NCBI RefSeq assembly: GCF_019037185.1 | Contig: NZ_JAHHXM010000034.1 | Location: 1 to 32,097 of the forward strand | Reading direction: 5' to 3' | DNA from: Oceanobacillus caeni | Lineage (GTDB): Bacteria; Bacillota; Bacilli; Bacillales; Amphibacillaceae | DNA length: 32,097 nucleotides | In this document: positions 126 to 19,950 of the stretch, in pieces | Position numbering within the stretch: position 1 is the first letter of the stretch | Layout: each line of letters opens with the position of its first letter | The notes under the pieces: generated by a model | The model's input: the letters and a program-made list of their open reading frames with translations, nothing else | The model's database searches: none | Told to the model about the DNA's origin: nothing | Program-made: the position numbers and the translations under genes

Positions 126-196
126 AGAAAGATCCGATAAATCGACTAACCATTATTCGGGGATGAAGGAATCCCACTGCTGGAAGTCTTCTTTAT
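126..196 (+). repeat. TTTAT-bounded repeat, copy A (5'-truncated)
   Basis: The right half of the dispersed element is present: a version of the conserved GGTCCGATAAGTGCGACTAA core, the GGGGATGAAGGA loop of hairpin 2 and the end GGAAGTCTTCTTTAT (182-196). The left hairpin is missing; the element starts abruptly just after the rRNA terminator. Hairpin 2 is degraded compared with copies E to G. Confidence 0.8.
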
Positions 197-282
197 AGAA
201 ATACGAACTCAATAAATGCAAGTTTGTTAAATATTAAGATATGGTTATGTTATATTAAAAGAGAATTATAAGAAGAAAAAAG

Positions 283-459
283 ATGGTGTTATTTATCCCA
301 CTTAAACGGATGGAAGTCTTCTTTATAAAATTAATTTGGACAAATAACTCTTTTTATTTTAGGTATAGTTTAGTGCTAGGCTTGTTAATTATTGTCCTTC
401 TTTTGACACATGACCAAGTAAATAACTTCCTTTTTTTAGTTATAATATTAATAGGATGA
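283..459 (+). CDS. Possible small two-helix membrane protein
   Basis: An ATG at 283 opens 58 codons that are very hydrophobic from about residue 26 on, with two possible membrane segments around residues 29-41 and 49-58. The upstream AGAAGAAAAAAG is only a weak ribosome binding site. The 30-bp mini-repeat copy B lies inside it and would encode about residues 6-15. After the TGA the same frame stays hydrophobic for 12 more codons (SLGLLVFSTIQN), so this may be a decayed longer gene. I do not recognise the family. It could equally be chance coding in AT-rich repeat debris. Confidence 0.22.
   Translation: MVLFIPLKRMEVFFIKLIWTNNSFYFRYSLVLGLLIIVLLLTHDQVNNFLFLVIILIG
297..326 (+). repeat. TTTAT-bounded repeat, copy B (30-bp deletion form)
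   Basis: TTTAT at 292-296 is followed by the element's left end CCCAC, a 9-10 base joint, then the right end TGGAAGTCTTCTTTAT (311-326). Both hairpins and the whole core are gone, leaving only the two termini. It looks like an internal-deletion product of the family. Confidence 0.7.
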
Positions 460-610
460 TCTCTAGGATTACTTGTTTTTTCGACCATACAAAATTAAAA
501 CGTAATCTTTGGATATCCCATACATCCACGGTTTCCTGGAATCATTCTAGTTATATAAAAAAAGAAAACATTGAATGATTTTACATAAGTACGGTTTCAG
601 GGGGGATTAA

Positions 611-1120
611 ATGAAAAAAATTATATTGGTAATTATTATTGTAGGGATGCTAGGATGGGCTGTTTATGACTTTGTTATAAATCGTGATTCAACGGAAGTC
701 GGTACATCTGTAGGAGATATGGCTCCAGATATCGAATTGACAACGTTAAACGGAGAAACGGTGAAATTATCTGATTATCGTGGAAATAAGGTATTTGTTA
801 ATTTTTGGGCTACGTGGTGTCCACCATGCCGTGCAGAAATGCCAGACATACAGAAATTTGATAACGATGAAGATGTTAAAATTTTGGCAGTTAATTTAAC
901 ATCAACTGAAAAGAGTGTTGATGATGTACAGAAATTTGTTGATGAGCTTGGTTTGACTTTCCCGATTTTAAAGGATGAAAAGGGAAAGGTAGAACAAATG
1001 TATAAAGTAAATGCTTATCCAACTTCTTATCTTATTGATTCTGATGGAGTGATAAGGAAAGTAGCCCTAGGAGCAATGAATTATGAAATGATGGTTCAGG
1101 AATTTGAGAAAATTAAATAA
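611..1120 (+). CDS. Membrane-anchored TlpA/ResA-like thiol-disulfide oxidoreductase
   Basis: The 169-residue product starts with an uncleaved-looking membrane anchor (about residues 3-22). A thioredoxin-like AlkC/TSA-TlpA fold follows, starting near MAPDIELTTLNGETVKLSDY. The active site is WCPPC (about residues 69-73), preceded by VNFWATW as in ResA and StoA. The cis-proline region is AYPTSYLID (about residues 134-142). Family members act outside the membrane, usually reducing disulfides in apocytochrome c or in spore-cortex enzymes; which applies here cannot be told from sequence. A GGGGGG ribosome binding site (600-605) precedes the ATG. No ccdA or resBC genes are adjacent, so it stands alone. 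Confidence 0.85.
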   Translation: MKKIILVIIIVGMLGWAVYDFVINRDSTEVGTSVGDMAPDIELTTLNGETVKLSDYRGNKVFVNFWATWCPPCRAEMPDIQKFDNDEDVKILAVNLTSTEKSVDDVQKFVDELGLTFPILKDEKGKVEQMYKVNAYPTSYLIDSDGVIRKVALGAMNYEMMVQEFEKIK

Positions 1121-1258
1121 AATCTGGTGGTTTCCTTCCCGCTAAATAAAAGCGTCCTTTTTGCTTTGAGAAACAATTTAGTTTATTGTAAATAGCACGG
1201 ATTAAATTAGAAAATCAAAAAATATAAAAGACATTATAAATAGAACGGAGTGGCTTTA

Positions 1259-1549
1259 ATGGCATTACAAGTATCTAAAGATGCAGCAAAATGGTTCATA
1301 GATGAAATGGGATTAGAAAAAGGGGAATTGGTTCAATTTTATTTAAAAATATATGGCGGTATTCCTACTGTGCATTCGAATTTCTTTCTAGGATTATCAG
1401 TTGGAGAAAATGGAAAAATTGCTATAAAAACAGAAGTAGAAGGTATTACTTTCTATATTAATGAAAAAGACGCTTGGTTTTTAGATGAATATAATATGAA
1501 AGTGGAGTTAGGAAAGGAAGAGCCTGAATATCATTTTGAAGAAAAATAA
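1259..1549 (+). CDS. HesB/YneR-like protein of the iron-sulfur biosynthesis fold
   Basis: The 96-residue protein resembles YneR-type HesB-like proteins: an N-terminal VSKDAAKWFIDEMGL helix, a central LGLSVGE strand pair, and a GITFYINEKDAWFLDEYNMKVE segment. It has no cysteine, so it lacks the metal or cluster ligands of true IscA/SufA carriers; scaffold function is therefore doubtful and its role is unknown. A GTG at 1250 in the same frame gives a longer form. However, the GGAG at 1247-1250 is properly spaced (8 bases) only for the ATG at 1259, which I chose. A terminator follows. Confidence 0.75.
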   Translation: MALQVSKDAAKWFIDEMGLEKGELVQFYLKIYGGIPTVHSNFFLGLSVGENGKIAIKTEVEGITFYINEKDAWFLDEYNMKVELGKEEPEYHFEEK

Positions 1550-1579
1550 AAGTTTTTGTTATTAATATGATAAGGTGAG

Positions 1580-1607
1580 AAAACCACGGACGGGTTTGTG
1601 GTTTTTT
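1580..1607 (+). terminator. Intrinsic terminator after HesB-like gene
   Basis: AAAACCAC (1580-1587) pairs with GTGGTTTT (1598-1605) and is followed by a T-rich run. Confidence 0.75.
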
Positions 1608-1692
1608 CTTTTTTTAAAATATTTCCTGGGCATTTATTTTGATTTATTTGGTATGATTAAGAAAAATGGATTTGCAAGTCTTGGGGTGAGGT

Positions 1693-2484
1693 ATGAATAG
1701 ATTAAAAGATAAAATAATAGTGATTACAGGGGCGTCATCAGGTATTGGAGAAAAACTCGCTATAAAGGTAGCTGAAAAAGGAGCGCATCCCATTTTATTG
1801 GCAAGATCTGAGGTGAAATTAAAAACAATCTCTGAGAAAATTAAAAAAGAAACTTCGGTACAACCTTACTATTTTAAACTTGATGTTAGTGATAGGGATG
1901 CAGTAGAAAGGGTATTTGTTGAAATAATTAAAGATATTGGGAACATCGATGTGTTAATAAATAATGCTGGATTTGGTGTTTTTGATGCTTTTCATGAGGC
2001 TAATTTAGATGATTTGGAAAAGATGTTTCATGTTAATGTCATTGGATTAATGAATTGTACAAAACAAGTAATTCCTAGTATGATTGAACGCAACATGGGC
2101 CATATCGTCAATATAGCGTCTCAGGCAGGTAAACTAGCGACGCCAAAAACAAGTGGATACGCAGCTACAAAACATGCCGTTCTCGGTTTTACCAATTCGT
2201 TAAGGCTTGAACTTAGGAAAACAAATATTCATGTATCTGCTGTAAACCCTGGGCCAATCGAAACCAACTTTTTTGAAAGTGCGGATCAATCCGGAACTTA
2301 TGTAAAAAATGTGAAAAAATATATGTTGCAAGCGGACACGGTCGCTGAAAAAATTGTATATTTAATGGAGCGACCAAAAAGGGAGCTAAATATTCCTTAT
2401 TGGATGAATATAGGAAGTAATTTATATAATATGTTTCCGCGTCTAGCCGACAAATTGGCAGGCCCTTTTTTAAATAAAAAATAA
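1693..2484 (+). CDS. Short-chain dehydrogenase/reductase (YqjQ-like)
   Basis: The 263-residue protein is a classical SDR. It shows the cofactor motif TGASSGIG (12-19), NNAG (90-93), catalytic Ser at about 143 and the YAATK pair Tyr156/Lys160, then NPGPIET (185-191). An Arg at 38 after the second strand (LLAR) suggests NADP(H) rather than NAD(H) (inference). Its closest match in my memory is B. subtilis YqjQ. The substrate cannot be read from sequence. The start is supported by TGAGG ahead of the ATG. It is monocistronic: a terminator precedes it and the lysine riboswitch follows. Confidence 0.85.
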   Translation: MNRLKDKIIVITGASSGIGEKLAIKVAEKGAHPILLARSEVKLKTISEKIKKETSVQPYYFKLDVSDRDAVERVFVEIIKDIGNIDVLINNAGFGVFDAFHEANLDDLEKMFHVNVIGLMNCTKQVIPSMIERNMGHIVNIASQAGKLATPKTSGYAATKHAVLGFTNSLRLELRKTNIHVSAVNPGPIETNFFESADQSGTYVKNVKKYMLQADTVAEKIVYLMERPKRELNIPYWMNIGSNLYNMFPRLADKLAGPFLNKK

Positions 2485-2595
2485 ACGCATGCAATATTAA
2501 ATGAAGAACTCTAAATTATGCTTGTTTTATATGTGGTTATTTGATACATTGGTAGTAATAATTAAATAAACTCTTATTTTATACTTATTAAAGTA

Positions 2596-2765
2596 AGGTA
2601 GAGGTGCAAAGACCATCAGTACTTATGTAGAGGAGAATGAGATCTGACGAAACATAAGGAAAGGGGAATTTGCCGAAGCGGAGGGATTCTCATTATCCCA
2701 ACGTTGGGTCTGTATTGAAGAAGTACAGAACTGTCATATAGGGGACTATATGGGGGGCTATCTAG
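2596..2765 (+). promoter_or_regulatory. Lysine riboswitch (L-box) controlling dapA
   Basis: The conserved lysine-aptamer blocks appear in order: GTAGAGGTGCAAAGACCATCAGT (from 2598), AAGGGGAATTTGCCGAAGCG (about 2660-2679), ACGTTGGGTCTG (2701-2712), ACTGTCATA (2730-2738) and the closing GGGGGGCTATC (2752-2762), which pairs with the 5' GGTAGAGG side. A terminator hairpin follows at 2792. Lysine binding is expected to favour that terminator, so dapA is repressed when lysine is plentiful. Confidence 0.95.
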
Positions 2766-2791
2766 CTAAGAACTTTTACTAAAAATGTTCT

Positions 2792-2831
2792 AGCAACAAC
2801 GAGCTCTCTAAGAATTCGTTGTTGCTTTTTA
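2792..2831 (+). terminator. Riboswitch-controlled terminator before dapA
   Basis: AGCAACAACGA (2792-2802) pairs with TCGTTGTTGCT (2816-2826), followed by TTTTT. Upstream, GAAC and CTAG segments (2761-2793) can pair among themselves as the competing antiterminator. Confidence 0.9.
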
Positions 2832-2885
2832 AATGAGTCCTCCACACTCGTACGGCCGAAAAATAAAAAAGAGGGTGTGAAGTTT

Positions 2886-3779
2886 ATGAATTTTGGTAAT
2901 GTATTAACGGCAATGGTGACTCCATTCAATCAAAATGGAGAAATCGATTATGAAGCAACAAGAACTTTAGTAAATCACTTAATTGAAAATGGTTCTGATG
3001 GGTTAGTTGTAGCTGGAACAACAGGTGAATCCCCCACATTAACTCATAAGGAAAAACTTGATTTATTTAAGTTTGTAATGGAAGTGGTAGAAGGGAGAGT
3101 ACCTGTTATTGCTGGAACAGGTTCAAATAATACTAGCGCATCCATTGAGCTAACGAAAGAAGCTACGGAACTTGGTGTAAACGGAATTATGCTTGTAGTT
3201 CCTTATTATAATAAACCATCACAAGAAGGTATGTATCAGCATTTTCGTGCTATTGCAGAAAGCACAAAGCTTCCAATTATGCTATACAATATCCCTGGAC
3301 GAAGCGTTGTAAATATGGAGCCATCAACGGTTATTCGCTTGGCTCAAATTGAAAATATTGTATCTATTAAAGAGGCAAGTGGAGATTTAGATAATGTATC
3401 TAAAATTATTACAGATGTTCCAGACAATTTCAGCGTTTATACTGGTGACGATAGTATGACTTTACCGACATTGTCTTTAGGTGGAGCTGGTGTAGTGTCT
3501 GTTGCGTCTCATGTAATTGGTAATGAAATGCAAGAAATGGTAACTCGTTTTAAAGACGGCGATGTAGCTTATGCAGCATCTCTTCATCGTCAGCTTTTAC
3601 CATTAATGAAAGCATTATTCACTTCACCAAACCCAACACCAGTGAAAGAAGCATTAAATCATATAGGTGTACAAGTTGGCGGTGTGAGATTACCATTAGT
3701 ACCTTTAAACGATACGGAACGTGCTGCTCTTTATAAAGTGATAACGAGTCATGAGGAAAGAAAAGCAGTAGGGTATTAA
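2886..3779 (+). CDS. dapA: 4-hydroxy-tetrahydrodipicolinate synthase
   Basis: DapA condenses pyruvate with aspartate semialdehyde, the first committed step to diaminopimelate and lysine. In this group it also supplies spore dipicolinate. The 297-residue protein has the family blocks GTTGESPTL (substrate loop), AGTGSNNT, VPYYNKPSQEGMYQHF with its catalytic tyrosine, YNIPGRSV, and SIKEASGDL containing the Schiff-base lysine. Length and the MNFGNV start match B. subtilis DapA. A GTG at 2877 in frame sits on the GAGGG site itself, so I use the ATG at 2886. It is alone here, under a lysine riboswitch and followed by a terminator, not in an asd-dap cluster. Confidence 0.96.
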   Translation: MNFGNVLTAMVTPFNQNGEIDYEATRTLVNHLIENGSDGLVVAGTTGESPTLTHKEKLDLFKFVMEVVEGRVPVIAGTGSNNTSASIELTKEATELGVNGIMLVVPYYNKPSQEGMYQHFRAIAESTKLPIMLYNIPGRSVVNMEPSTVIRLAQIENIVSIKEASGDLDNVSKIITDVPDNFSVYTGDDSMTLPTLSLGGAGVVSVASHVIGNEMQEMVTRFKDGDVAYAASLHRQLLPLMKALFTSPNPTPVKEALNHIGVQVGGVRLPLVPLNDTERAALYKVITSHEERKAVGY

Positions 3780-3790
3780 TTTTAAGTGGG

Positions 3791-3821
3791 AAAGAACAAG
3801 CTTATTCGCTTGTTCTTTTTT
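3791..3821 (+). terminator. Intrinsic terminator after dapA
   Basis: AAAGAACAAGC (3791-3801) pairs with GCTTGTTCTTT (3808-3818) around a short loop, then a T run. Confidence 0.9.
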
Positions 3822-3837
3822 ATATGCCTTGATTTTT

Positions 3838-3965
3838 CCCACCTCAAGCTTTTGGAGAACAAAGAAGGTAGGTGGGAGATCAACCGCCCGTAAAGGTCCA
3901 ATAAGTGCGACTAACTATCTGTAGGGGATGAGAGAAAAAAACCAACTGATGGAAGTCTTCTTTAT
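3838..3965 (+). repeat. TTTAT-bounded repeat, copy C
   Basis: A full-length copy. Hairpin 1 is CCCACCT...AGGTGGG with inner CTTTT/AGAAG pairing. The core is CCGTAAAGGTCCAATAAGTG. Hairpin 2 is a weakened form with loop GGGGATGAGAGA. The right end is GGAAGTCTTCTTTAT (3951-3965). The left flank is TTTTT rather than TTTAT. It fills most of the dapA to XRE-DUF1232 intergenic space. Confidence 0.9.
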
Positions 3966-4042
3966 TTAATCCGTTGAAACCAATGTTGACGTAGTGGAAC
4001 CAATTTGGTATGGTAATGGAAACATAATGGATTTGGAAAGGT

Positions 4043-4693
4043 ATGATTGATTTGGAAGATTTTAATCATGAAAGATTTGGAGTGTTTTTATCGAAAATTT
4101 TACAAGAAAGAAATTTATCGATAAGAAAATTGAGTAAGCTATGCGGTATAGATCATGCTACCATTTCTAAAATTATGAACGGGAAACGTAAAATTAACTT
4201 AAAACATTTGGAGAAGTTTTCTATGGGGCTAGATATAGAACTCCCTACTTTAATAAAAGCCGCCGGTTATAATATGGCGACGAAGAAAGAAAAAGCTGCA
4301 GATATTCAAGTTGCATTAGAAAAAATCCAACAATTAATAGAATCTTCTAACCTGTATCATGAAAATTTCACATTGGAAAAAATGGAACAGGAAATAGTTA
4401 ACTATAAAATTTATAGTCAGACAGATGAAGGGAAAAATACTATATTTAATCAATTTAATGAAAAACTAAAAAAAACAGGCGGAATTGGTCCGTTTATTGA
4501 AAATTTGAAATGGATGTATCATAGATTTATAGAGGAAAATGGAACTTCATTTCAAATCGGGTTAATGGGTGGTGCTCTACTCTATTTTATTGTTACAACC
4601 GATTTACTTCCTGATTATCTATTTCCAATCGGCTACTTGGATGATGCACTTGTCGTTCAAACCGTTTACCAGCAATTAAATATGAAAAGTTAG
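4043..4693 (+). CDS. XRE-family HTH protein with C-terminal DUF1232 (YkvA-like) domain
   Basis: The 216-residue protein joins two domains. Residues about 11-66 form a Cro/C1-type helix-turn-helix (LSIRKLSKLCGIDHATISKIMNGKR). Residues about 170-210 form a DUF1232 segment with the hallmark DLLPDYLFPIGYLDDALVV, including hydrophobic stretches that could insert in or lie on the membrane. A linker with helical, charged character lies between. The fusion suggests a DNA-binding protein tethered to, or sensing, the membrane (inference). The start is the first ATG after an in-frame stop; the ribosome binding site GGAAAGG is close to it. Target genes are unknown. Confidence 0.75.
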   Translation: MIDLEDFNHERFGVFLSKILQERNLSIRKLSKLCGIDHATISKIMNGKRKINLKHLEKFSMGLDIELPTLIKAAGYNMATKKEKAADIQVALEKIQQLIESSNLYHENFTLEKMEQEIVNYKIYSQTDEGKNTIFNQFNEKLKKTGGIGPFIENLKWMYHRFIEENGTSFQIGLMGGALLYFIVTTDLLPDYLFPIGYLDDALVVQTVYQQLNMKS

Positions 4694-4857
4694 AAGGGCG
4701 AAAACAAATAACATGTGGGAAAAGCATATGATGAATTATTTGAGAAGTATGCACTTGCTCTTAACGCAATGAAGTTAATTTCAAATATTAGTGTACAGTT
4801 ACAATTCAACAATTATATGTTTAGTGAAAGTATTGTTCAGGAGAAAGGAAACTACCA

Positions 4858-6018
4858 ATGAAATCCATGTTAATCCGAAAAATAAAACAATTTGATTACT
4901 CATTAATAATAATTACTTTACTTTTAACGGGTTTTGGATTAATGATGGTATACAGTAGTAGTTATGCCGTTGCTTATATCCATTATGATAACCCTACATA
5001 TTTTTTTACAAAACAATTGAAATGGTTCATCATTGGATTATTTTTCTTTATAATTGCCACCTTTGTACCCTATCGTATCTATAGTAAACTAAGTCCATTA
5101 TTAGTAATGGTATCAATCGTAATGCTAGTAATGGTGTTAATACCTGGACTGGGAACGGAGAGAAATTATTCTCAACGATGGATTCAATTAGGCCCCATTT
5201 TGCTTCAGCCTACAGAATTAATCAAATTATTTATGATCATGTATTTTGCTTCTTTTTACGCTAAAAAGCAAGAGACGATTAATCAATTTAAAAATGGGGT
5301 TTTGCCGCCTTTAATTATATTAGGGATTATTTTTCTTTTAATCTTAAAACAACCTGATCTAGGATCCGCGGGACTTATTTTACTTGCTTGTTTAACGATT
5401 GTCATATGTTCAGGAGTAAAGAAAAGACATTTATTCATGCTTGGAACTGTCGGGCTGGCAGGTATCATTTATTTTTCCATTACTTCTTCCTATCGTATGC
5501 AAAGAATAGTCTCATTTATTGATCCTTTTGCAGATCCTTTCGGTGAAGGGTATCAGTTAGTAAATGGTTATATTGCTATTGGGACAGGGGGAGTAATGGG
5601 AAATGGTTTAGGTAATAGTATTCAGAAGTTAGGATTCCTACCAGAAGCCCATACTGACTTTATTATGGCAGTAATTATTGAGGAACTAGGTGTTTTGGGA
5701 TTGATTATAGTTATTAGTGCATATATTTTCATTATGTTCCGTGGTGTACAGATTGCAAGAGAATGTAAGGATAGGTTTGCCAAATTACTTGCAATTGGAA
5801 TTACCTTTCAAATTATAGCTCAAGCATGTATAAATTTAGGAGCTGTTTCTGGACTACTTCCAATAACTGGCGTAACATTACCTTTCATTAGTTATGGTGG
5901 GTCTTCCTTAGTTATTACAATGGTTTCTTTAGGAATTTTGATTAACATATCATCCTATAGGGAAAATACTAAGTCAGTCCCAGCGAATCGAGAGGCGAGA
6001 ATGATTCACCAAGTATGA
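4858..6018 (+). CDS. SEDS-family peptidoglycan polymerase (FtsW/RodA/SpoVE type), FtsW-like
   Basis: The 386-residue integral membrane protein has about ten hydrophobic segments and family signatures MVYSSS near the N terminus, LQPTELIKL, GYQLVNGYIAIGTGG, LPEAHTDFI and the near-C-terminal NLGAVSGLLP-ITGVTLPFISYGGSS. SEDS proteins polymerise lipid II glycan strands with a partner class B PBP. Sequence feel is closest to B. subtilis FtsW (YlaO), but SpoVE or RodA paralogues cannot be excluded and no division-gene context is present. The ribosome binding site GGAGAAAGG precedes the ATG. The 160 bp upstream shows no repeat or riboswitch. Confidence 0.85.
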   Translation: MKSMLIRKIKQFDYSLIIITLLLTGFGLMMVYSSSYAVAYIHYDNPTYFFTKQLKWFIIGLFFFIIATFVPYRIYSKLSPLLVMVSIVMLVMVLIPGLGTERNYSQRWIQLGPILLQPTELIKLFMIMYFASFYAKKQETINQFKNGVLPPLIILGIIFLLILKQPDLGSAGLILLACLTIVICSGVKKRHLFMLGTVGLAGIIYFSITSSYRMQRIVSFIDPFADPFGEGYQLVNGYIAIGTGGVMGNGLGNSIQKLGFLPEAHTDFIMAVIIEELGVLGLIIVISAYIFIMFRGVQIARECKDRFAKLLAIGITFQIIAQACINLGAVSGLLPITGVTLPFISYGGSSLVITMVSLGILINISSYRENTKSVPANREARMIHQV

Positions 6019-6061
6019 TAAAAGGTATTTTAGCCATAATATCTCTTGGGAGGTGTTTTGG

Positions 6062-6208
6062 ATGGCTAATAAAAATAAACAAAATAGTTTTAGCGATGAG
6101 CAAAGAGTGAGAAAAAATTTATCTAAGGAATTTGATCATGAATTTGCCAATGAACCATTAACAGCAAATGAAAAGTATAATAATAAAAAGACGAAAAAAC
6201 GCCAATAA
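6062..6208 (+). CDS. Small SspO-like spore protein candidate
   Basis: A 48-codon frame starts at an ATG eight bases after a good GGGAGGTG ribosome binding site. It ends just before a terminator, so it is very likely a real gene. The product is hydrophilic and rich in Asn and Lys. Its C-terminal half (HEFANEPLTANEKYNNKK) resembles the C terminus of small acid-soluble spore protein O, which typically ends in an ANE-LT-ERQNNKK pattern and is also about 48 residues long. The N-terminal half does not match what I remember of SspO. A spore-core role is therefore inference from half the protein. Confidence 0.55.
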   Translation: MANKNKQNSFSDEQRVRKNLSKEFDHEFANEPLTANEKYNNKKTKKRQ

Positions 6209-6219
6209 TTATCGCCTAT

Positions 6220-6246
6220 CCCCTTTGACCAAAAGGGGTTTTATGT
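6220..6246 (+). terminator. Intrinsic terminator after SspO-like gene
   Basis: CCCCTTT (6220-6226) pairs with AAAGGGG (6232-6238), followed by TTTTATGTTTTT. Confidence 0.8.
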
Positions 6247-6360
6247 TTTTAAGATACTTTATTTTATGGACGATTGATGCGATAAGTTATAAATTGGAAG
6301 GAATTCAAACGGAACGTGTAGAAATTTAAACATATAGGAAAAGGAGGGGGGTTTTAAAAA

Positions 6361-7320: not shown

Positions 7321-7347
7321 TATAGTGCAAAAAAATGGATTCAACAA

Positions 7348-7378
7348 TTGGAATTGTTTGTAGTAGCTCTAGTATAAT
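7348..7378 (+). promoter_or_regulatory. Probable sigma-A promoter of the DinB-family gene
   Basis: TTGGAA (7348-7353) and TATAAT (7373-7378) are separated by 19 bases. The -10 is perfect, the -35 is weak and the spacing is long. Confidence 0.5.
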
Positions 7379-7420
7379 AGAATTACAAAAGAATTTTAAC
7401 AAGATGAAGGAGTAATCGTT

Positions 7421-7900: not shown

Positions 7901-7920
7901 TCTCCTCAAGTTTTCTTTAT

Positions 7921-8027
7921 CCCACCTCAGGTAGGTGGGAGTGTTATTGTCCGTAAAGGTCTGATAAGTGTGACTAACCATCAGTAGGGGATGAAGGATC
8001 CCCCTTTCTGCTGGAAGTCTTCTTTAT
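7921..8027 (+). repeat. TTTAT-bounded repeat, copy D (short hairpin 1)
   Basis: It begins right after TTTAT (7916-7920) and ends GGAAGTCTTCTTTAT (8013-8027). Hairpin 1 is cut down to CCCACCT-CAGGT-AGGTGGG, so the inner loop was lost while the outer stem was kept. The core is CCGTAAAGGTCTGATAAGTG. Hairpin 2 keeps ACCATCAGTAGGGGATGAAGG but its 3' arm is altered. Confidence 0.9.
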
Positions 8028-8048
8028 AAAAGTGCTTGGAAAACAGAA

Positions 8049-8203: not shown

Positions 8204-8207
8204 TTTC

Positions 8208-11807: not shown

Positions 11808-11839
11808 ACATGTATGTATTTAAGTTTCATTGAATCATA

Positions 11840-11935
11840 CAGTGAACCGCACTTCCCCACGCTAGTATTATCTAGATCGGGTAATAAGGGTCAGATTTCT
11901 CTTCTCAGCCACACACCGTAGCTCCCCTAGTGCTA
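11840..11935 (-). promoter_or_regulatory. TPP (THI-box) riboswitch controlling ykoFEDC
   Basis: The minus strand carries the conserved THI blocks in order: CACTAGGGGAGC, GGCTGAGA, GACCCTTATTACCCGATCT, AGATAATACTAGCGTGGGGAAGTG. This is the canonical thiamine pyrophosphate aptamer. TPP binding is expected to promote the downstream terminator and shut the importer off. Confidence 0.97.
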
Positions 11936-12018
11936 ACTTTCGGATATGCAATTTTTCTTCTATTATGAATAAAACATACTTTATGATTTTTGTAAAGGGC
12001 TCATCTGTTGGTAAATAA

Positions 12019-12042
12019 AAAGGTGGGAGACTATCCCACCTT
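12019..12042 (-). terminator. helD terminator overlapping the stop codon
   Basis: On the minus strand AAGGTGGGA pairs with TCCCACCTT around a short loop that contains the helD TAG stop, followed by TTTTATTTACC. The stem equals the outer stem of repeat hairpin 1 (TCCCACCT/AGGTGGGA). Confidence 0.8.
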
Positions 12043-14343
12043 AAACGTATCGTTATCCGCTTCTTTAATAAACAAGCAAGGTTCCCCTGGTGAGACCATT
12101 GTTAAATCATGCATGGCCCTAGTGCATGCTGTATAGAATAACGCTCGCTCAGATTCCCGATTGTATTGATTACTTGATGCATCTGGAATAATAACTGCAT
12201 CAAATTCAATCCCTTTTGCTAAATAGACAGGAAGTACCAAAATGCCTTTTTCAAAAGAAAAAGTTTCTTCATTAATTGGATATAAATCAATTTCTTTCCG
12301 TAGTAATTCATAAATCTGATTTGTTTCCTCCATTGTTTTACAAATTAGTGCGATGGTTTCATGACCATATCTACGTAGTTTTTCAATTTCCAATAACAAT
12401 GTTTGAACTAAGTTATTTTCAGTTTGAAGCAGGGTAGGTTTTTTTCCTTCCCGTTCAAAAGGTTCAATAATGGAATGACCGGGAGCAAAGTGTTTTGAGA
12501 ATTCTACAATTTCTTTTGTTGATCGATAACTTTTTGTTAAGGTAATTCGTTCATGGTTACTTTCCACCGCATCCGGGATAAGAGGATTTTCACTTGTCGT
12601 ATGAGCGTATATTCCCTGGTTAACATCGCCTAGAAGTGTCATTCTCGTATAAGGGAAAATATGTCTTATAAATGCAAATTGGAAAGCAGAATAATCCTGT
12701 GCCTCGTCAATAAATAAATGACGTATAGAACGGTCTGCATCGTGTCCAAGAATTTTTCCTTTGAAATATACATATGGTGTAGCATCTTCCCACGTTAAAT
12801 AGCGCTTGTTTAAATGTTTTACAGTAAATGTAGCGATTGTTTCCCAATTCTTTGGTTTTAGATTTGGTTCCCATTTTTCAAAAAGGTTCCTGTACGTGGC
12901 AAGCACATGGACAAACTTCAATCGTTTAATTTGTTTTTTAATTGGGGCAAATGCCCGCTGAATCACTTCTTTACGCAAAAACATTTCTTCTTGAAGCGGG
13001 TCATCTTCATCACCATACATATCCTGACTATAAGTGAATGCCTTCTGGTAATCTTCTTTGTCTAATAATTGCATTTCTTCCAAAACCCAGTCTTCAGAAA
13101 CTTCCTTTTGTTGGATATGACGAATTTCCTTTAAAAGCCATTTAGAAACAAGTTCCAATTTATTTGGAATAGAAATGCTAGAATCAAGTGCATAAAAATA
13201 TCGAGTAATTTCCTCTTTTGATAGGATAATTTCGTTTCTAAATTTAATGTTTTTAAAAAGAATTCCAGTATGGTTTAAATAAGAAATATAGGAATCAATC
13301 ATCTGTTTAAAATATAAGCTTGATTTATAGTCCATATTTATAACTCGTATATCGTTTTTATCCTTATGTCGTTCTGTAAGGGTGTACTCGATTTGTTCAA
13401 AAGGAGATTCAATTTCAATGTTTTTTTCAATCCTTTTTCTTAAAAATTGTAAGAAGGTAGATTGGCCAATATTTGTCTCTCCTAATTCCGGAAGTACATT
13501 GATGATATAACTTGAGAATAGTGGATTTGGTGAAAGAAGGAGAAGGTCATTTGCATTTAACTCTTCACGAAAACGATACATTAAATAGGCTACGCGCTGT
13601 AATGCGGCTGACGTTTTTCCACTTCCAGCCACTCCTTGCACAATTAAAAGATTACTCCGTTCGTTACGAATAATTTTATTTTGTTCCTTTTGGATCGTTG
13701 CAACGATGCTTTGCATTTTTGTGTTAGCATTATTACCAAGAGCATGCTGAAGTAGGGTATCTCCGATTGTGAGGCCGGTGTCAAACATACCTTTCATCTG
13801 ACCTTGCCTAATAATATATTGCCTTTTTAATGTTATTTCACCATTTATGGTATCTTCCGTCGATTCATATTGAGCAGGTCCTGGAGCGTAGTCATAATAC
13901 ATGCTTGATATAGGTGCACGCCAATCATATACGAGAAAATTCTCATCCTTTTCATCCATCAGAGAAGCCTTACCAATGTAGATTTTTTCCTCTTCCTTTG
14001 TCTGGTTTTCCTTAAAGTCAATTCTGCCAAAATAAGGTGAGTCTTGTAACGAATCTAATGTTTTTCTCTCATGATCTATATTTCCATGTGACCGTTCACG
14101 TTCAGCTAAAAATTCAGCTTGCTGTTTTAAACTAGCTTGTGTTTCAATTATATCGTCTGGTTCGTCTAGGTTTACCGTAACATCATCCCAAAAATCCTTT
14201 CTAAGATCGATAATACTCTCTCTTAGACCCGAGGCTTTCTCCTTCAGTGCTATTTTTTTCTTTTTAATAACCTGAATGACGTCTTCCAATCTCTGCCTTT
14301 CAGCTAATTCATCTTTTATTTGATTTTCCGATTCCTTATTCAT
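12031..14343 (-). CDS. helD: HelD, RNA-polymerase-recycling UvrD-like ATPase
   Basis: The 770-residue protein matches B. subtilis HelD in length and plan. An N-terminal charged coiled coil (first ~90 residues, rich in Glu and Lys) in the family reaches into the RNA polymerase secondary channel. Then follow YDWRAPISSMYYDY, Walker A GVAGSGKT (about 237-244), the helicase DEAQD box, TLTKSYRST and a C-terminal LPVYLAKGIEFD motif. It frees stalled polymerase from nucleic acid using ATP. A TTG at 14352 would extend it by three residues but lies on the GGGG site, so the ATG at 14343 is preferred. Confidence 0.93.
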   Translation of the reverse strand: MNKESENQIKDELAERQRLEDVIQVIKKKKIALKEKASGLRESIIDLRKDFWDDVTVNLDEPDDIIETQASLKQQAEFLAERERSHGNIDHERKTLDSLQDSPYFGRIDFKENQTKEEEKIYIGKASLMDEKDENFLVYDWRAPISSMYYDYAPGPAQYESTEDTINGEITLKRQYIIRQGQMKGMFDTGLTIGDTLLQHALGNNANTKMQSIVATIQKEQNKIIRNERSNLLIVQGVAGSGKTSAALQRVAYLMYRFREELNANDLLLLSPNPLFSSYIINVLPELGETNIGQSTFLQFLRKRIEKNIEIESPFEQIEYTLTERHKDKNDIRVINMDYKSSLYFKQMIDSYISYLNHTGILFKNIKFRNEIILSKEEITRYFYALDSSISIPNKLELVSKWLLKEIRHIQQKEVSEDWVLEEMQLLDKEDYQKAFTYSQDMYGDEDDPLQEEMFLRKEVIQRAFAPIKKQIKRLKFVHVLATYRNLFEKWEPNLKPKNWETIATFTVKHLNKRYLTWEDATPYVYFKGKILGHDADRSIRHLFIDEAQDYSAFQFAFIRHIFPYTRMTLLGDVNQGIYAHTTSENPLIPDAVESNHERITLTKSYRSTKEIVEFSKHFAPGHSIIEPFEREGKKPTLLQTENNLVQTLLLEIEKLRRYGHETIALICKTMEETNQIYELLRKEIDLYPINEETFSFEKGILVLPVYLAKGIEFDAVIIPDASSNQYNRESERALFYTACTRAMHDLTMVSPGEPCLFIKEADNDTFKVG

Positions 14344-14437
14344 TTCAATCAACCCCGTTCAAAAGCGATATAATATATTCTTATTGTTATTAAAAGACAT
14401 TTATAATATGAGTCGAAAAAAACGTTCATTATTTTAT

Positions 14438-14549
14438 CCCACCTCAAGCTTCTGGGGAAACAAAGAAGGTAGGTGGGAGATCAATTGTCCGTATACTATC
14501 TATCAGTGGTGGATGAAGGAAATCCTCCACTGATGGAAGTCTTATTTAT
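14438..14549 (+). repeat. TTTAT-bounded repeat, copy E (overlaps SLAP gene 3' end)
   Basis: It starts after TTTAT (14433-14437) and ends GGAAGTCTTATTTAT (14535-14549). Hairpin 1 is intact. The core is shortened (CCGTATACTA). Hairpin 2 is very good: ATCAGTGG-T-GGAT against ATCC-T-CCACTGAT, whose GG/CC pairs replace the AG/CT pairs of copy F. Its right half lies inside the minus-strand SLAP reading frame. Confidence 0.9.
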
Positions 14550-14927
14550 TAGTATTACCCCATTTGAAGGAATTTCTTTTTTTAATATTTGTTGTTTAGG
14601 AAAAATAAATGTCCAAGGTATACTTGTTTCTTTTTCAATAACTAATCTAGGAATGGTGAAGATATGCCCGGCAATTAATTCACCATTTGCATGATACTGA
14701 ATCGTGTCATGGTGAAAAGTGAAATCCGAATTGGAGGTATTATGAACGAGAACCGTTACTAGTAATTCCCCTTTATGATTGATTGCATGTCCCAAAGTGG
14801 TAAATTGTATTTTTTCTTCCTTTGAAAGATTCTCTTTTACCCTTATAAATTCCTGCTTTATTTTTTCTCTGTCTTTATTTGCTATCGTTTTGTCCCAAGC
14901 CGCTTCAAATTGTAATGTCTGAGTCAC
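14496..14927 (-). CDS. SLAP-domain protein, C terminus encoded by an inserted repeat
   Basis: This product of about 143 residues resembles the Bacillus SLAP-domain family: an N-terminal helical stretch (KDREKIKQEFIRV), the LVTVLVHNTSNSDFTF core strand and IPWTFIFPKQQI near the end, matching the family's PWTFIFP hallmark. Function is poorly known; surface or secretion-accessory links have been proposed for relatives. An ATG at 14942 lies in frame, but GGAGGT at 14940-14935 is correctly spaced for the GTG at 14927. The last ~17 residues (from about NKTSISGG) are encoded by repeat copy E, so the native C terminus was probably replaced. Confidence 0.7.
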   Translation of the reverse strand: MTQTLQFEAAWDKTIANKDREKIKQEFIRVKENLSKEEKIQFTTLGHAINHKGELLVTVLVHNTSNSDFTFHHDTIQYHANGELIAGHIFTIPRLVIEKETSIPWTFIFPKQQILKKEIPSNGVILINKTSISGGFPSSTTDR

Positions 14928-15089
14928 GATGATAACCTCCAATTGTATTTAAACGTATACCCATATCATACAGGATTAAACGGGAATTCCAAAATAGCTA
15001 AACTCATCCTAGCATTTTTAAAACCAGGCTATACTAATCTAATTTCAATTTGAAAAATGGTATAATAGAACGAAGGATTTATAGTTTAT

Positions 15090-15215
15090 CCTACCTCAAG
15101 CTTCTGGGGAAACAAAGGAGTAGGTGGCAGATCAACTGCCTGAAAAGGTCCGATAAGTGCGACTAACCATTAGTAGGGGATGAAGGAAAAACCCTACTGA
15201 TAGGAGTCTTCTATA
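15090..15215 (+). repeat. TTTAT-bounded repeat, copy F
   Basis: It starts after TTTAT (15085-15089). Hairpin 1 is slightly damaged (CCTACCT...AGGTGGC). The core GAAAAGGTCCGATAAGTGCGACTAA is the best preserved of the set. Hairpin 2 has AGTAGGG paired with CCCTACT. The right end is degraded to GGAGTCTTCTATAT. It lies about 70 bases upstream of sbcD. Confidence 0.9.
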
Positions 15216-15288
15216 TTAATGAAAATATAAAACTAAAAAAATGAATGAAATATATGTTAAATGAGAATAGAAGGGAGCATGGATAATA

Positions 15289-16479
15289 ATGAAGTTTTTT
15301 CATACGGCAGATTGGCATCTTGGAAAATTAGTTCAAGGGGTGTATATGACGGATGATCAGCGTTTTGTATTAAAGCAGTTCGTTGAAGCGGTAGAAGAGG
15401 AAAAGCCCGATGTGGTTATCATTGCAGGTGACTTATATGATCGTGCTGTACCTCCAACTGAAGCTGTCCATTTATTGGATGAAGTTCTTGAAACGATTGT
15501 AATAAAGCTTAATACCCCTGTCCTTGCTGTTGCGGGTAATCATGATAGTCCAGGTAGATTGAATTTCGGCAGTAGTATCATGAAGGAAAAAGGATTTCAT
15601 ATCATTGGTAACTATACAAACGACTTCACTCCAGTTGTTTTGAATGATGAGCATGGGGAGGTACATTTCCATCTTGTTCCATATTGTGACCCAAGTGTCG
15701 TACGAACAATTCTTGAGGACGATGAAATACGAAGTCATGATGATGCAACAAGGAAGACTATCGAGCATATGAACGATTCATTAGACCCTAATGTACGTCA
15801 TGTGTATGTTGGACATGCTTTTGTTACACCATTTGGAGAAGAACAAGAGAATACAAGTGAATCAGAAAGACCCCTATCTATAGGTGGTGCGGAATATGTA
15901 GATGCTCACCATTTTAAAGCTTTTCATTATACAGCTTTAGGCCACTTACACCAAGCGCACTACGTAATGGATGAAACGGTTCGTTATTCCGGATCGATTT
16001 TAAAATATTCGATTTCAGAAGAAAATCATAAAAAAGGCTTCTTAGTGGTTGATATGGATAAAGATGGGAACGTAAGTCTTGATAAGCGTCTTTTAACTCC
16101 AAGAAGGGATATTCGTACGGTGGAAGCAACGATGGAAGATTTACTAAAACATCCGGTGAATGAAGATTATGTATTCGTACGTTTACTAGACACAGCTCCG
16201 GTATTATCCCCAATGGAAAAAGTACGCTCCGTTTATCCGAATGCGATGCACGTAGAAAGAAAGAATGTCTCTTCTGGACTCTTTCCAAATGAAGAAAGGG
16301 AATATGTCGATCGTAGTAGTTTGAGTGACTTTGATCTATTTCAAGCTTTCTATAAGGAAGTAAAAGGACAAGAACCTTCAGAGGAAACGGAAAAACTATT
16401 TAAAGAAGTGTTAGACGAAATGTTAAAAGCGGATAGTGAAAGCCAAACGGTCAAAAAGAGAGAGCCAATTAGAAACTAA
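15289..16479 (+). CDS. sbcD: Exonuclease SbcCD, nuclease subunit D
   Basis: SbcD is the Mre11-like Mn-dependent nuclease that, with SbcC, opens hairpins and trims DNA ends. The 396-residue protein has the calcineurin-like phosphoesterase motifs in order: DWHLGK (Asp8, His10), GDLYDR (Asp48), GNHDS (84-88), VGHAF and GHLHQAH. GGGAG lies 12-13 bases before the ATG. The gene ends 21 bases before sbcC, with a ribosome binding site between, so the pair is an operon. Length is normal. Because this enzyme removes hairpins, its neighbourhood of hairpin-rich repeats is notable but probably coincidental. Confidence 0.96.
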   Translation: MKFFHTADWHLGKLVQGVYMTDDQRFVLKQFVEAVEEEKPDVVIIAGDLYDRAVPPTEAVHLLDEVLETIVIKLNTPVLAVAGNHDSPGRLNFGSSIMKEKGFHIIGNYTNDFTPVVLNDEHGEVHFHLVPYCDPSVVRTILEDDEIRSHDDATRKTIEHMNDSLDPNVRHVYVGHAFVTPFGEEQENTSESERPLSIGGAEYVDAHHFKAFHYTALGHLHQAHYVMDETVRYSGSILKYSISEENHKKGFLVVDMDKDGNVSLDKRLLTPRRDIRTVEATMEDLLKHPVNEDYVFVRLLDTAPVLSPMEKVRSVYPNAMHVERKNVSSGLFPNEEREYVDRSSLSDFDLFQAFYKEVKGQEPSEETEKLFKEVLDEMLKADSESQTVKKREPIRN

Positions 16480-16500
16480 TGGAAAGGGGTTAGTCATACA

Positions 16501-19500
16501 ATGAAACCACTAAAGTTAACGATGACGGCTTTTGGCCCTTATAAATATAGTGAAACCATCGATTTTACAGAATTGGATCAAAACCATTTATTTGTCATAT
16601 CTGGAAACACTGGTGCTGGAAAAACAACCATTTTTGATGGTATTTGTTTTGCGTTATATGGTAGTGCAAGTGGTTCAGATCGTGAAAACCAGACAATGCT
16701 CCGTAGTGATTTTGCGGAAGATAATACGCATACTTCTGTTGAGCTTATATTTGAATTACATGGTCGAATCTATCGTATTTTACGTCAATTAGGCCATGTT
16801 AAAAAAGGAAATAAGACGAAAACTGGGGATAAATACGAGTTTTATGAAATTATAGGAGATAAAGAAATTCCTTGTGTCGATCGGCAAATCGTTTCAGAAA
16901 TTGATAGAAAAGTAGAGACTCTTATCGGATTAACGAAGGATCAATTTAAGCAAATCGTGATGTTGCCGCAAGGGGAATTTCGTAAATTACTTACTTCAGA
17001 GACAGAAAATAAAGAAGAAATATTACGTCGGATTTTTAAAACAGAATCTTATCAACAACTAGTAGGGCAACTAAACGAAAAGAAGCAAACTGTTAAACAA
17101 TCATATAATCAAGCAAAACAAGCTATCGATCATTATATTCAAGGTATATCATCTAATCTACCAAATCGAGAGGATTCCTTATTATTTCAAGTAATCTCAG
17201 AAGAACATTTCAATGTTAATCAAGTTATTGCTGGCTTAAAAGAAGAGATGGAATTTTACATTAAGCAAATAAAAAACGATCAAAAAGAGTATGATGATGC
17301 ATATGCCATGCATAACAAGAAACAATCTGAGTATTTTCAAGCAAAAGTAATAAATGAACGATTCCAAGAGTTAGATGAGAAAAAGGCTCGACTACAGCAA
17401 TTAGAAGAAAAGAAACCTAACGTTGAAATAAAACAACGTGAACTAGAAGTGGCAGAACGAGCAGCTGCAATTGAAATATACGAAAAGCAAGTGAATGATT
17501 GGCGGCTAGATGAAGAACATAAATCGAATCTTTTGAAACAAGCAAAATTGGCCAAAAGTAAATCTACTGAACAATTCGAACAAGCACGTGACGTATTTCG
17601 AGAGCAGGAAGCTAAAAAAGACGAACGTGAACAAGTAACTAAAAAGCTGGATCATCTTAAAGATATTCTGCCAATGGTGCAAGAAATGGAAAAAACGAAA
17701 CAGCACATTGATGGACTTAAGAAACAAGTAGAAACAGCCTCTATTAATCTTGAGAAAGTTAATAAAGATGTTGTTCAAAAGCAAAAAATGAGTGATGATC
17801 ACTACCAAAAAATAAAAGAACTGGATGAAAAAACAACTCTATTGCAAGATAAACAGGAAAAATTATCGGAATTAAAGGTGAAAGGACAAGCTTTATTAGA
17901 TTACAAAAAATTACAGAAGCGAATGAATGAGTTGGAAGCGGATGTTGCTAATAAAAAGCAGGCCTATGATCAGTTAAAGCAAATCTATCAAGAACAGGAA
18001 GAAATATGGTTAAATAACCAAGCAGTTGTTTTGGCAGAGCATTTACATGATGGGGAAGCTTGCCCGGTTTGTGGAAGTAAGGAGCACCCACAAAAGGCTG
18101 TAAATAGTGGGAAAGTTGTAACTAGAGAAGAGCTCCAATCTTTGAGAATAAACCTAGATAATACAGGGGAGCTTTATCGAAAAGCGGATGGAGTATTAGC
18201 CGCTAATAAAAGCAATATGAAGGAAATGGAATCCGAATTACTGGAGCAATTTAACATTCCAAAAGAAGAAGCTATTCGTATTTATGATGAAGTGGTTATA
18301 GAAGGTAAAAGGGTAAAAGAAGAGGTAGATCAATTATTAAAGTTAGCTGAGGAATTAAGAAGTTTAAGATTGAATCATGAAAAAGAATTAACTGTTATCA
18401 GAGAGCTTCAAACGAAAAAAGAAAAGCTAGATCATATTCATGCACAGTATAAAGAGGAATATAGAACAGCTTTAACTCGCTATGAGGAAAGATTAAATCA
18501 CGTTCCCGAAGACGTAAGAAATCTAACTGTTTTAGAGAGTGAAATTGAAAGAACGGCTAATCATAAACAAAAATTAGAAAAAAGTTGGGAATTAGCTCAA
18601 AAGCAGTTAGAACAGGCAAAAGAAGAGGATACTAAGACAGATGCTAATTTGCATCATGCGATAAAACAATTAGAAGAAACAAAAGAGAAAAAGCAGAAAG
18701 CTGAAATTGAATTTAAAACGAAACTGGAAGAAGCGGCTTTCGCTAGTTTAGAAGCGTATAAAAATGCAAAAATGTCCGAAGTTGAGCAACAGAAATGGAA
18801 AGTTGCCATTCAGCAATTTAATGAAGAATTATCAACCGTAAAATCCCAGGTTCATGAATTACAGCTTTCTTTAAAGGATAAAAGAAGGCAGGATTTAATC
18901 CAGTTGGAGTCACAACTTGAACAGCTGAAACAGCAATATGAAAATAAGCTAACTCGTTTAAATCTTTCCAAGGAATATTATCAAGAGGCAGATAAATTAA
19001 TAATTCATATTTTAGATGGGCATGAGCAGGTAGTTAAATTTGAAAAAGATTTGTCTACGATTACGGATTTGCATGACATGCTACGTGGACAAAACGACAA
19101 GCGGATCTCATTCGAACGTTATTTGCAGATTGAATATTTGGAAAGAATTATTGAAGCAGCAAACCATCGATTAAAACGGTTATCCAATGGGCAATTTTAT
19201 TTAATTCGCAGTGACCGCCAAGAATCCCATGGAAAACAAAGTGGACTTGGACTCGATGTTTTCGACACGTATACTGGACAAACCCGGGATGTCAAGACAT
19301 TATCAGGTGGGGAAAAATTCAATGCTTCCTTATGTCTTGCATTAGGAATGTCAGATGTCATCCAAAGTTTCCAAGGGAATATTTCCATTGAAACCATGTT
19401 CATTGATGAAGGTTTTGGGTCATTAGATGAGGAATCCTTATTTAAAGCCATTGATACCTTAATTGAATTACAACAAACCGGTCGCATGATTGGGGTTATT

Positions 19501-19596
19501 TCTCATGTTCAGGAATTGAAAAACATGTTTCCAGCCGTTTTACAAGTTGCAAAAACAAAAGAAGGTTATAGTAAAACGAAATTTGTCTTGAAATAG
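16501..19596 (+). CDS. sbcC: Exonuclease SbcCD, ATPase subunit C
   Basis: The 1031-residue SMC/Rad50-like protein has Walker A GNTGAGKT (35-42), two long coiled-coil arms, the zinc hook CPVC (521-524) at the apex, the signature LSGGEKFNAS (from 934) and Walker B with D-loop MFIDEGFGSLDEE (966-978). ATP-driven arm movements gate SbcD nuclease. The coiled coils are strongly Glu/Lys/Gln-rich throughout 170-500 and 545-880. The start ATG follows AAAGGGGTTAG. No frameshift or truncation is seen. Confidence 0.96.
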   Translation: MKPLKLTMTAFGPYKYSETIDFTELDQNHLFVISGNTGAGKTTIFDGICFALYGSASGSDRENQTMLRSDFAEDNTHTSVELIFELHGRIYRILRQLGHVKKGNKTKTGDKYEFYEIIGDKEIPCVDRQIVSEIDRKVETLIGLTKDQFKQIVMLPQGEFRKLLTSETENKEEILRRIFKTESYQQLVGQLNEKKQTVKQSYNQAKQAIDHYIQGISSNLPNREDSLLFQVISEEHFNVNQVIAGLKEEMEFYIKQIKNDQKEYDDAYAMHNKKQSEYFQAKVINERFQELDEKKARLQQLEEKKPNVEIKQRELEVAERAAAIEIYEKQVNDWRLDEEHKSNLLKQAKLAKSKSTEQFEQARDVFREQEAKKDEREQVTKKLDHLKDILPMVQEMEKTKQHIDGLKKQVETASINLEKVNKDVVQKQKMSDDHYQKIKELDEKTTLLQDKQEKLSELKVKGQALLDYKKLQKRMNELEADVANKKQAYDQLKQIYQEQEEIWLNNQAVVLAEHLHDGEACPVCGSKEHPQKAVNSGKVVTREELQSLRINLDNTGELYRKADGVLAANKSNMKEMESELLEQFNIPKEEAIRIYDEVVIEGKRVKEEVDQLLKLAEELRSLRLNHEKELTVIRELQTKKEKLDHIHAQYKEEYRTALTRYEERLNHVPEDVRNLTVLESEIERTANHKQKLEKSWELAQKQLEQAKEEDTKTDANLHHAIKQLEETKEKKQKAEIEFKTKLEEAAFASLEAYKNAKMSEVEQQKWKVAIQQFNEELSTVKSQVHELQLSLKDKRRQDLIQLESQLEQLKQQYENKLTRLNLSKEYYQEADKLIIHILDGHEQVVKFEKDLSTITDLHDMLRGQNDKRISFERYLQIEYLERIIEAANHRLKRLSNGQFYLIRSDRQESHGKQSGLGLDVFDTYTGQTRDVKTLSGGEKFNASLCLALGMSDVIQSFQGNISIETMFIDEGFGSLDEESLFKAIDTLIELQQTGRMIGVISHVQELKNMFPAVLQVAKTKEGYSKTKFVLK

Positions 19597-19608
19597 AAAT
19601 ATAATTTA

Positions 19609-19637
19609 GTGACCCTTTTCCAGTCATGTGATATACT
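19609..19637 (+). promoter_or_regulatory. Probable vmlR promoter
   Basis: GTGACC (19609-19614) and TATACT (19632-19637) are 17 bases apart, and a TGTGA just before the -10 resembles an extended -10. It precedes the whole attenuator leader. Confidence 0.55.
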
Positions 19638-19663
19638 ACAAGAAGAATTAAATGAGAGGACTG

Positions 19664-19686
19664 ATGGGTGGACAATGAAAAATTAA
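19664..19686 (+). CDS. Tiny upstream ORFs in vmlR leader (MGGQ and MKN)
   Basis: After GAGAGGA (19654-19660) two minute frames overlap: ATG-GGT-GGA-CAA-TGA (19664-19678), and ATG-AAA-AAT-TAA (19675-19686) sharing the ATGA. Homologous leaders (Listeria lmo0919, B. subtilis vmlR) are known to use very short upstream ORFs for antibiotic-dependent attenuation. Which of the two is translated is uncertain: the Shine-Dalgarno is close to the first and far from the second. Confidence 0.5.
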
Positions 19687-19755
19687 TCTTATTTTAAACG
19701 TTTGAAATGAAATAATTTTGATTTCAACCAGGAATAAATAGGATTAGTCTGCCCA
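19665..19755 (+). promoter_or_regulatory. vmlR leader anti-antiterminator (arms 1 and 2)
   Basis: TGGGTGGAC (19665-19673) pairs with GTCTGCCCA (19747-19755), and TAATC (19684-19688) pairs with GATTA (19742-19746), with a 10-base bulge that holds the MKN start. The loop contains a small hairpin TTGAAAT/ATTTCAA (19702-19727). Arm 1 coincides with the upstream ORFs, so a stalled ribosome would block this pairing. A T run follows at 19756-19760, so this structure could also terminate by itself. Confidence 0.65.
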
Positions 19756-19950
19756 TTTTTAATTGAACGTTTCTATTTTGCATAATAAATAGATTTATCC
19801 CACCTAAACAGGAAGTAACACTCCCTCCTCCAAGCTTCTGGATAAACAAAGAAGTTAGGTGGGAGATTAACTGCTCATTAGTGGGGGATGAAGGAAAGCC
19901 TTCGCTGATGGAAGTCTTTTTATTTGTTATGTAAAGGCATGGCTAATCCT
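19740..19950 (+). promoter_or_regulatory. vmlR leader antiterminator (arms 2 and 3) with repeat in its loop
   Basis: AGGATTAG (19740-19747) is perfectly complementary to CTAATCCT (19943-19950), and GCC (19751-19753) can extend it with GGC (19936-19938). Formation would take the 5' arm of the terminator at 19945. It cannot coexist with the 19665-19755 structure, which uses the same GATTAGTCTGCCC segment. Repeat copy G lies entirely in the loop. Confidence 0.6.
19799..19923 (+). repeat. TTTAT-bounded repeat, copy G (inside vmlR leader)
   Basis: It starts after TTTAT (19794-19798) and ends GGAAGTCTTTTTAT (19910-19923). Hairpin 1 is CCCACCT...AGGTGGG with a longer loop that keeps CTTCT/AGAAG. 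The GGTCCGATAAGTGCGACTA core is lost. Hairpin 2 pairs CATTAGTGGGGG with CCTTCGCTGATG entirely through Watson-Crick or G-T pairs despite several changes. Confidence 0.9.

Follow-up and report, generated by a model that had tools for sequence, protein, structure and literature searches.

A TTTAT-bounded, replication-oriented repeat family of Oceanobacillus caeni and other bacilli with an IS605-like left hairpin

Results

The 32,097-nt stretch of Oceanobacillus caeni DNA analyzed here (contig NZ_JAHHXM010000034.1, positions 1 to 32,097 of the forward strand, assembly GCF_019037185.1; the window in what follows, meaning this whole stretch) contains seven copies, A to G, of a short repeat bounded by the pentanucleotide TTTAT, all lying on the plus strand at the positions where a previous sequence-only reading had placed them. 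Copy A (128–196; nhmmer 2.2e-11) comprises the right half of the element only, equivalent to model positions 85–156 and with TTTAT at its end, and copy B (292–326) is a TTTAT followed by an internally deleted element, read directly, in which the left end scores only E = 0.1 and the right end is exact. Copy C (3833–3965; nhmmer 1e-31) is a form with a short left side, preceded by TTTTT and followed by TTTAT, and TTTAT precedes the shortened element of copy D (7916–8027; nhmmer 2e-23), copy E (14433–14549; nhmmer 7.6e-27), which lies between two minus-strand open reading frames (ORFs), and copy F (15085–15216; nhmmer 9.3e-32). Copy G (19794–19923; nhmmer 2e-27) has TTTAT and a full left end, has lost the GGTCCGATAAGTGCGACTAA core, and lies inside a match to the Rfam family ncr1575. 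The left TTTAT is hence present before B, D, E, F, and G, as the sequence-only reading stated. The common right end that it described is exact in A, B, C, and D, carries one change in E, and is more diverged in F and G; allowing up to three mismatches, its string matches the window eight times, against 0.76 matches expected from shuffling (maximum of 100 shuffles, 3), and seven of these matches are copies A to G. Scanning the window with a profile at E ≤ 5 revealed no additional significant copy. A short hairpin resembling hairpin 1 (AAGGTGGGAGACTATCCCACCTT, 12017–12050), possibly a terminator, scored at chance level (E = 1.3).

The copies and hairpins recognized in that reading are real, but the full form of the element is longer than it proposed and includes an outer stem that it overlooked. 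The full form spans 157 nt (~155) and consists of TTTAT, the outer stem CGGGCAGT/ACTGCCCG around hairpin 1, a linker, hairpin 2, and TTTAT, with a left start TTTATCCCACCTAAACGGGCAGTAAGACT..., also printed as TTTATCCCACCTAAACGGGCAGTAAGACTCCCACCT.... Among 46 distinct copies retrieved from the O. caeni genome, the full left end is retained in 26, and 17 begin at model positions 20–40, the start of these shorter forms being ~29 nt downstream of the full left end. In the window, copies C, E, and F are such shorter forms, beginning at the second CCCACCT, and copy D lacks still more; besides the internally deleted copy B, copy G is the only one with the full left end. Across 38 copies from this and other genomes, 13 of the 29 predicted pairs show double compensatory changes, confirming that subterminal hairpins have been preserved at both ends through compensation. 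Mismatches within the hairpins are nearly symmetric (42 GT versus 32 AC) and show no sign of selection on an RNA strand, as expected of DNA hairpins or of plain decay, and not of a selected RNA. The bases directly 5' of the two hairpins are also alike (TTAAC or AAAC, and CTAAC), and the TAA that they share could hint at a guide located at the hairpin foot, an indication that is suggestive only.

Several observations establish that these elements have moved. The flanks of five window sites were joined after removal of the element and used as queries against 26 genomes of the genus, among them that of O. caeni. In the genome of a sister species (G023), the element is absent from four of the five sites (C, E, F, and G), with single alignments running across the junctions at 81–83% identity. 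The site of copy E is a clean empty site with a single TTTAT, bearing out the mobility proposed from sequence alone and showing that orthologous sites are not always occupied. The junctions of F (TTTCGT), G (GTTAC), and C (a T-run) differ from TTTAT, as can be expected at this level of identity, and at the site of copy D the upstream flank is present without the element, the downstream flank not being alignable at the junction. The ncr1575 RNA (RF02452) on the plus strand at 19642–19976 is split by copy G, scoring 108.7 bits over 335 nt against a 212-nt model, and is uninterrupted in G023 (132.9 bits over 207 nt).

The TTTAT boundaries are equally apparent in a genome rich in near-identical copies (G107). 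In 20 copies fetched from it, picked as full-length matches and set in differing flanks, TTTAT is found on the left in 20 and on the right in 19, the exception (L211) reading TTTAG. In the O. caeni genome the distinct copies show TTTAT at 20/26 left and 34/44 right ends, and neighboring copies share a single TTTAT in two other genomes (G282 and G228) and at two more junctions. When four joined G107 sites were searched in the sister genomes G215 and G067, one was found empty in G067, where it reads TTCAT, one (L213) retained a remnant right end in G215, and for the other two (L206 and L210) no junction was obtained. Together with the empty site in G023, the G107 boundaries agree with the predicted insertion 3' of a fixed pentanucleotide.

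The orientation of the copies follows the replication strand. In a single-contig genome (G363), in which GC skew was computed from 20 samples of 15 kb, element strand and skew flip together, in two shared intervals around 0.6 and 2.95 Mb. With 45 of the 46 matches used, five of them from one tandem array, skew-positive regions hold 20 plus- and 1 minus-strand copies and skew-negative regions 1 and 23, so that 43/45 are concordant (Fisher 1.3e-10); leaving out four copies that fall between skew samples at the switches, 39/41 remain so (p = 1.7e-9). In G107, 76 left ends, among 100 listed of 118, fit two arcs defined without a skew check, a number reached in 0 of 1000 permutations. In the O. caeni genome, GC skew is positive in the direction of the element for 34 of 40 copies, and nine of the ten contigs with at least two listed copies are internally consistent, the exception being contig C33. 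The element top strand corresponds to the lagging-strand template, the strand also used by IS608 and ISDra2 according to the available text of PMC6006769. These three genomes thus show the orientation bias anticipated from the window. Two orientation blocks are also discernible by eye in genome G270. GC skew also tracks genes, and neighboring ORFs (≥80 aa on both sides) were therefore checked: of 46 distinct copies, two were dropped, and among the 44 with an ORF on both sides 26 agree with both neighbors, 18 oppose at least one, and 7 oppose both. Since so many copies run against their neighbors, the bias is not simply gene direction.

The family is abundant and widely distributed. The O. caeni genome (3.57 Mb in 87 contigs) holds at least 40 scored copies, 79–89% identical to copy F, among 181 first-look candidates. 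The 157-nt consensus matches 91/397 genomes of the order and 48/135 genera (E ≤ 0.001). The right-hairpin pattern matches at least 79 stretches of named genomes, including Ornithinibacillus, Niallia, Domibacillus, Lysinibacillus, Sporosarcina, Terrilactibacillus, Psychrobacillus, Siminovitchia, Peribacillus, Neobacillus, Cytobacillus, Aquibacillus, Gottfriedia, and one Paenibacillus. No name of the Bacillus cereus group appears among the 79 stretches listed, and a 16S tag for that group matched 0/397 genomes. At least 40 scored copies in G107 are 91–100% identical to the query; G363 holds 46 scored matches, and a further genome (G333) has 31 left ends, of which 25 are identical over 27 nt under a search pattern that favors near matches. 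Two others (G082 and G352) appear copy-rich by first-look candidates only, with two scored copies each. Five tandem matches with 152-nt spacing occur at 1671672–1672420 of G363 (C1). An exact scan for the left end found no match on viral contigs, phage records gave no match, and plasmids gave none with copy F as query; other plasmid searches returned matches in a small number of records from bacilli and in one plasmid of Klebsiella grimontii (CP079755.1, 221561–221652; L401), where a DUF262 gene and a restriction endonuclease are close by.

Longer relatives of 199–387 nt have the same ends, between which inserts are found, most of them around model position 102. The Bacillaceae-1 RNA (RF01690), which has no match in the window, lies within the same inner region of the element in 7 of the 16 long-form loci scanned, as a separate module that is antisense in six (L228, L233, L273, L288, L177, and L178) and sense in one (L245). 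A recurring RNA-like insert of ~105 nt (GTGAGATACAGTGAAACTT...AGAACGGGACTAAC; L243:1142–1408, L268:7643–7901, L305, L306, and L324) has no Rfam match in the loci scanned and matches 18/397 genomes, several in part only; its GTGAAACTT is predicted to pair with the terminal AAGTTTCAC of the element. A further structured insert (TCTAGCTGCGGCTCCTAG...GTCGCC) is nested in the longest forms (L259:6484–6870, L293:2013–2392, and L323).

The left end of the repeat resembles that of an IS605 element. In the O. caeni genome, an intact tnpA (132 aa) lies 3' of TTTAAC and is followed by a tnpB that continues beyond its contig; another tnpA start, interrupted by a contig end, and a degraded fragment are also present. 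From 30 loci with related IS605 left ends, 26 were parsed by a rule that requires TTTAAC, so that all 26 follow this hexanucleotide by construction. The repeat and these left ends share an inner hairpin (AAGnCTCCC..CTTCAAGC / GGTAnGnGGGAGATnAA) within an outer stem. The left profile of the repeat matches 19/26 IS605 left ends at ≥8 bits, compared with 0/520 shuffles, and in the reverse test the IS605 left profile matches 22/50 repeats, compared with 0/1000 shuffles; in a control of 3000 random windows, 22 and 26 pass, all of them from loci with such IS605 elements or with the repeat itself. The repeat-left profile also weakly matches some hairpins of IS605 right ends (5/9 at ≥5 bits versus 2/450 shuffles). 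The repeat is carried by 18/43 genomes with this IS605 clade and by 73/354 without it (p = 0.003), a comparison that ignores kinship and uses a cut-off chosen post hoc. Y1 hits were obtained in 19 of 23 copy-bearing genomes. In genome G011, a copy of the repeat lies ~0.7 kb from an IS200-type tnpA (L056:2523–2676).

Away from the repeats, the window contains lysine (2591–2768), thiamine pyrophosphate (11837–11938), and S-adenosylmethionine (27805–27907) riboswitches.

Discussion

The anatomy, boundaries and orientation of the family are best accounted for if it is a non-autonomous, single-stranded-DNA mobile element of the IS200/IS605 group, akin to the palindrome-associated transposable elements (PATEs), and we regard this as its probable, if by no means certain, nature. 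In this model, the strand reading TTTAT-element-TTTAT would be exposed as lagging-strand template, and a Y1 (HUH) transposase acting in trans would bind the two hairpins. Short guides at the hairpin feet would pair with TTTAT, directing cuts after the left and after the terminal TTTAT, and the resulting circle would insert 3' of another TTTAT, with no further target duplication. The family shares with PATEs and with the ends of IS200/IS605 elements such as IS608 and ISDra2 a fixed left pentanucleotide, a hairpin near each end, the lack of any other duplication, lagging-strand orientation, and the IS605-like left hairpin. It departs from them in having no known autonomous TTTAT partner, in a right end unlike that of the local IS605, and in targeting TTTAT instead of TTTAAC. 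The left hairpin is probably descended from the left end of the TTTAAC-targeting IS605 found in O. caeni and many of its relatives, or recognized in common with it. The target of IS608 is set by guides inside the element, as the accessible part of PMC5934647 describes, and it is hence possible that the same transposase could serve an element with an altered target.

A number of results weigh against this reading. The left-end matches are weak when taken one by one (median 13 bits), and the IS605 left ends are mutually related, while the right half of the repeat, compared with nine IS605 right ends of one clade, including the stretch after tnpB, reached at best 0.8 bits, with shuffles scoring up to 4.9. 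The suggestion that this half echoes a guide-RNA scaffold, or omega-RNA, found no support in these nine ends and was rejected. No element combining the ends of the repeat with tnpA or tnpB, and no autonomous TTTAT partner, was found within the genomes searched, leaving of the proposed kinship the similarity of the left end; the TnpB element with a TTTAT motif that had been envisaged was likewise not found, the 26 parsed IS605 left ends following TTTAAC as their parsing rule required. A Y1 transposase was not detected in every carrier examined, a Y1_Tnp search giving no hit in four of the 23 (G082, G333, G352, and G363), two of which are copy-rich for certain (G363, with 46 scored matches, and G333, with 31 left ends). 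G107, in spite of its near-identical copies, has only a TTGAT-type Y1 element with unrelated ends, and this element was rejected as a partner on account of its TTGAT ends. Lastly, the orientation bias looks weaker, by eye, in genome G408. It is because of the Y1-free carriers and of the TTGAT-only Y1 of G107 that we hold the single-strand model as no more than probable and do not class the family as a proven PATE.

Carriers without Y1 would fit an RNA-mediated process, in which a structured transcript would reinsert at TTTAT sites of the lagging-strand template, to be copied by a reverse transcriptase acting in trans, in the manner of a group II intron. Strong folds and the modular structured inserts of the long forms point the same way, and intron retrohoming is also compatible with a lagging-strand orientation. 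Nonetheless, the GT and AC mismatches (42 versus 32) bear no RNA-strand signature, the loci scanned contain no Rfam intron match, and the left end is like an IS605 DNA hairpin, which together make this route unlikely. The small size, non-coding nature and high copy number of the repeat would also suit an ordinary miniature inverted-repeat transposable element (MITE) mobilized by a DDE transposase, as bcr1 is classed in the available text of PMC3733652, and a 5-bp TTTAT target duplication is formally identical to the product of insertion 3' of TTTAT. The repeat lacks terminal inverted repeats, however (left TTTATCCCACCTAAACGGG, right GAAGTCTTCTTTAT), its 5-mer is constant across different sites (left 20/20 and right 19/20 in full-length copies), and its replication-strand bias is strong; TTTAT as a plain MITE duplication was rejected on these grounds, and we consider a MITE origin distinctly improbable.

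A role as old, immobile repeats, retained as transcript-end or mRNA-stability structures, would agree with the intergenic position of the copies, with the 79–89% identity of the O. caeni copies to copy F, and with the frequent location of bcr repeats in untranslated regions that is described in the consulted part of PMC3446304. Against it stand the empty sites in a sister species and the near-identical copies of G107, and as it would account for present use only, and not for spread, we judge it highly improbable. We give least credence to spread by a REP-associated tyrosine transposase (RAYT, or TnpA-REP). Like the REP (repetitive extragenic palindromic) sequences and BIMEs (bacterial interspersed mosaic elements) served by RAYT, the present family would be a short palindromic repeat tied to Y1 proteins, and several relatives encode Y1 proteins of RAYT length (~180–290 aa), with partial copies within ~1 kb of such a gene at two loci (L154 and L165). 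Yet the repeat is larger than REP, has two unlike hairpins and TTTAT-bounded ends that are not REP-like, and rarely has a RAYT nearby; the Y1 set of O. caeni consists of the intact IS605 TnpA, the contig-cut gene, and the degraded fragment. RAYT spread was rejected given that the repeat does not flank RAYT genes: nearby copies, even partial ones, were found at 0/11 fetched RAYT-length loci of the genus, and one-sided partial copies at 2/6 loci of other genera.

The closest described counterpart of the family is bcr1, one of the group A B. cereus repeats together with bcr2 and bcr3. Økstad in 2004 reportedly gave bcr1 as ~155 bp long with TTTAT at each end. As far as the accessible text of the sources goes, a TTTAT motif is described for bcr1, along with a mechanism that may be site-specific (PMC6542083), and the family measures 167 nt in PMC2267715 and 147 elsewhere in the literature. 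The ~155 bp and the TTTAT bounds of the present repeat match these descriptions (PMC6542083; PMC2267715), and the two families also have in common their intergenic location, tens of copies, a stable fold, and signs of mobility, a likeness of description, no bcr1 sequence having come to light in the papers surveyed. They differ in that published accounts confine bcr1 to the B. cereus group, whereas the present family occurs in many other genera. In the accessible literature on bcr1 structure, IS200 and transposases, and on IS605-type repeats of Bacillus, a coverage that most subscription papers fall outside, no link of bcr1 to IS605 ends or to the replication strand was found. A more sweeping and rather doubtful proposition is that of a modular superfamily of structured mobile DNA across the bacilli, bcr1 included, with Bacillaceae-1 and the Rfam-unmatched RNA-like domain as nested modules, which would spread at replication forks also in Y1-free cells through an undescribed transposase or RNA route.

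Until now, bcr1 has been treated as peculiar to B. cereus and catalogued among the MITEs. A replication-oriented family that is bounded by TTTAT, has an IS605-like left hairpin, and occurs in dozens of genera would offer for repeats of this kind a concrete mechanism that explains their orientation and their TTTAT bounds together. The long forms suggest, furthermore, that mobile repeats may carry at least one of the orphan Rfam RNAs, namely Bacillaceae-1.

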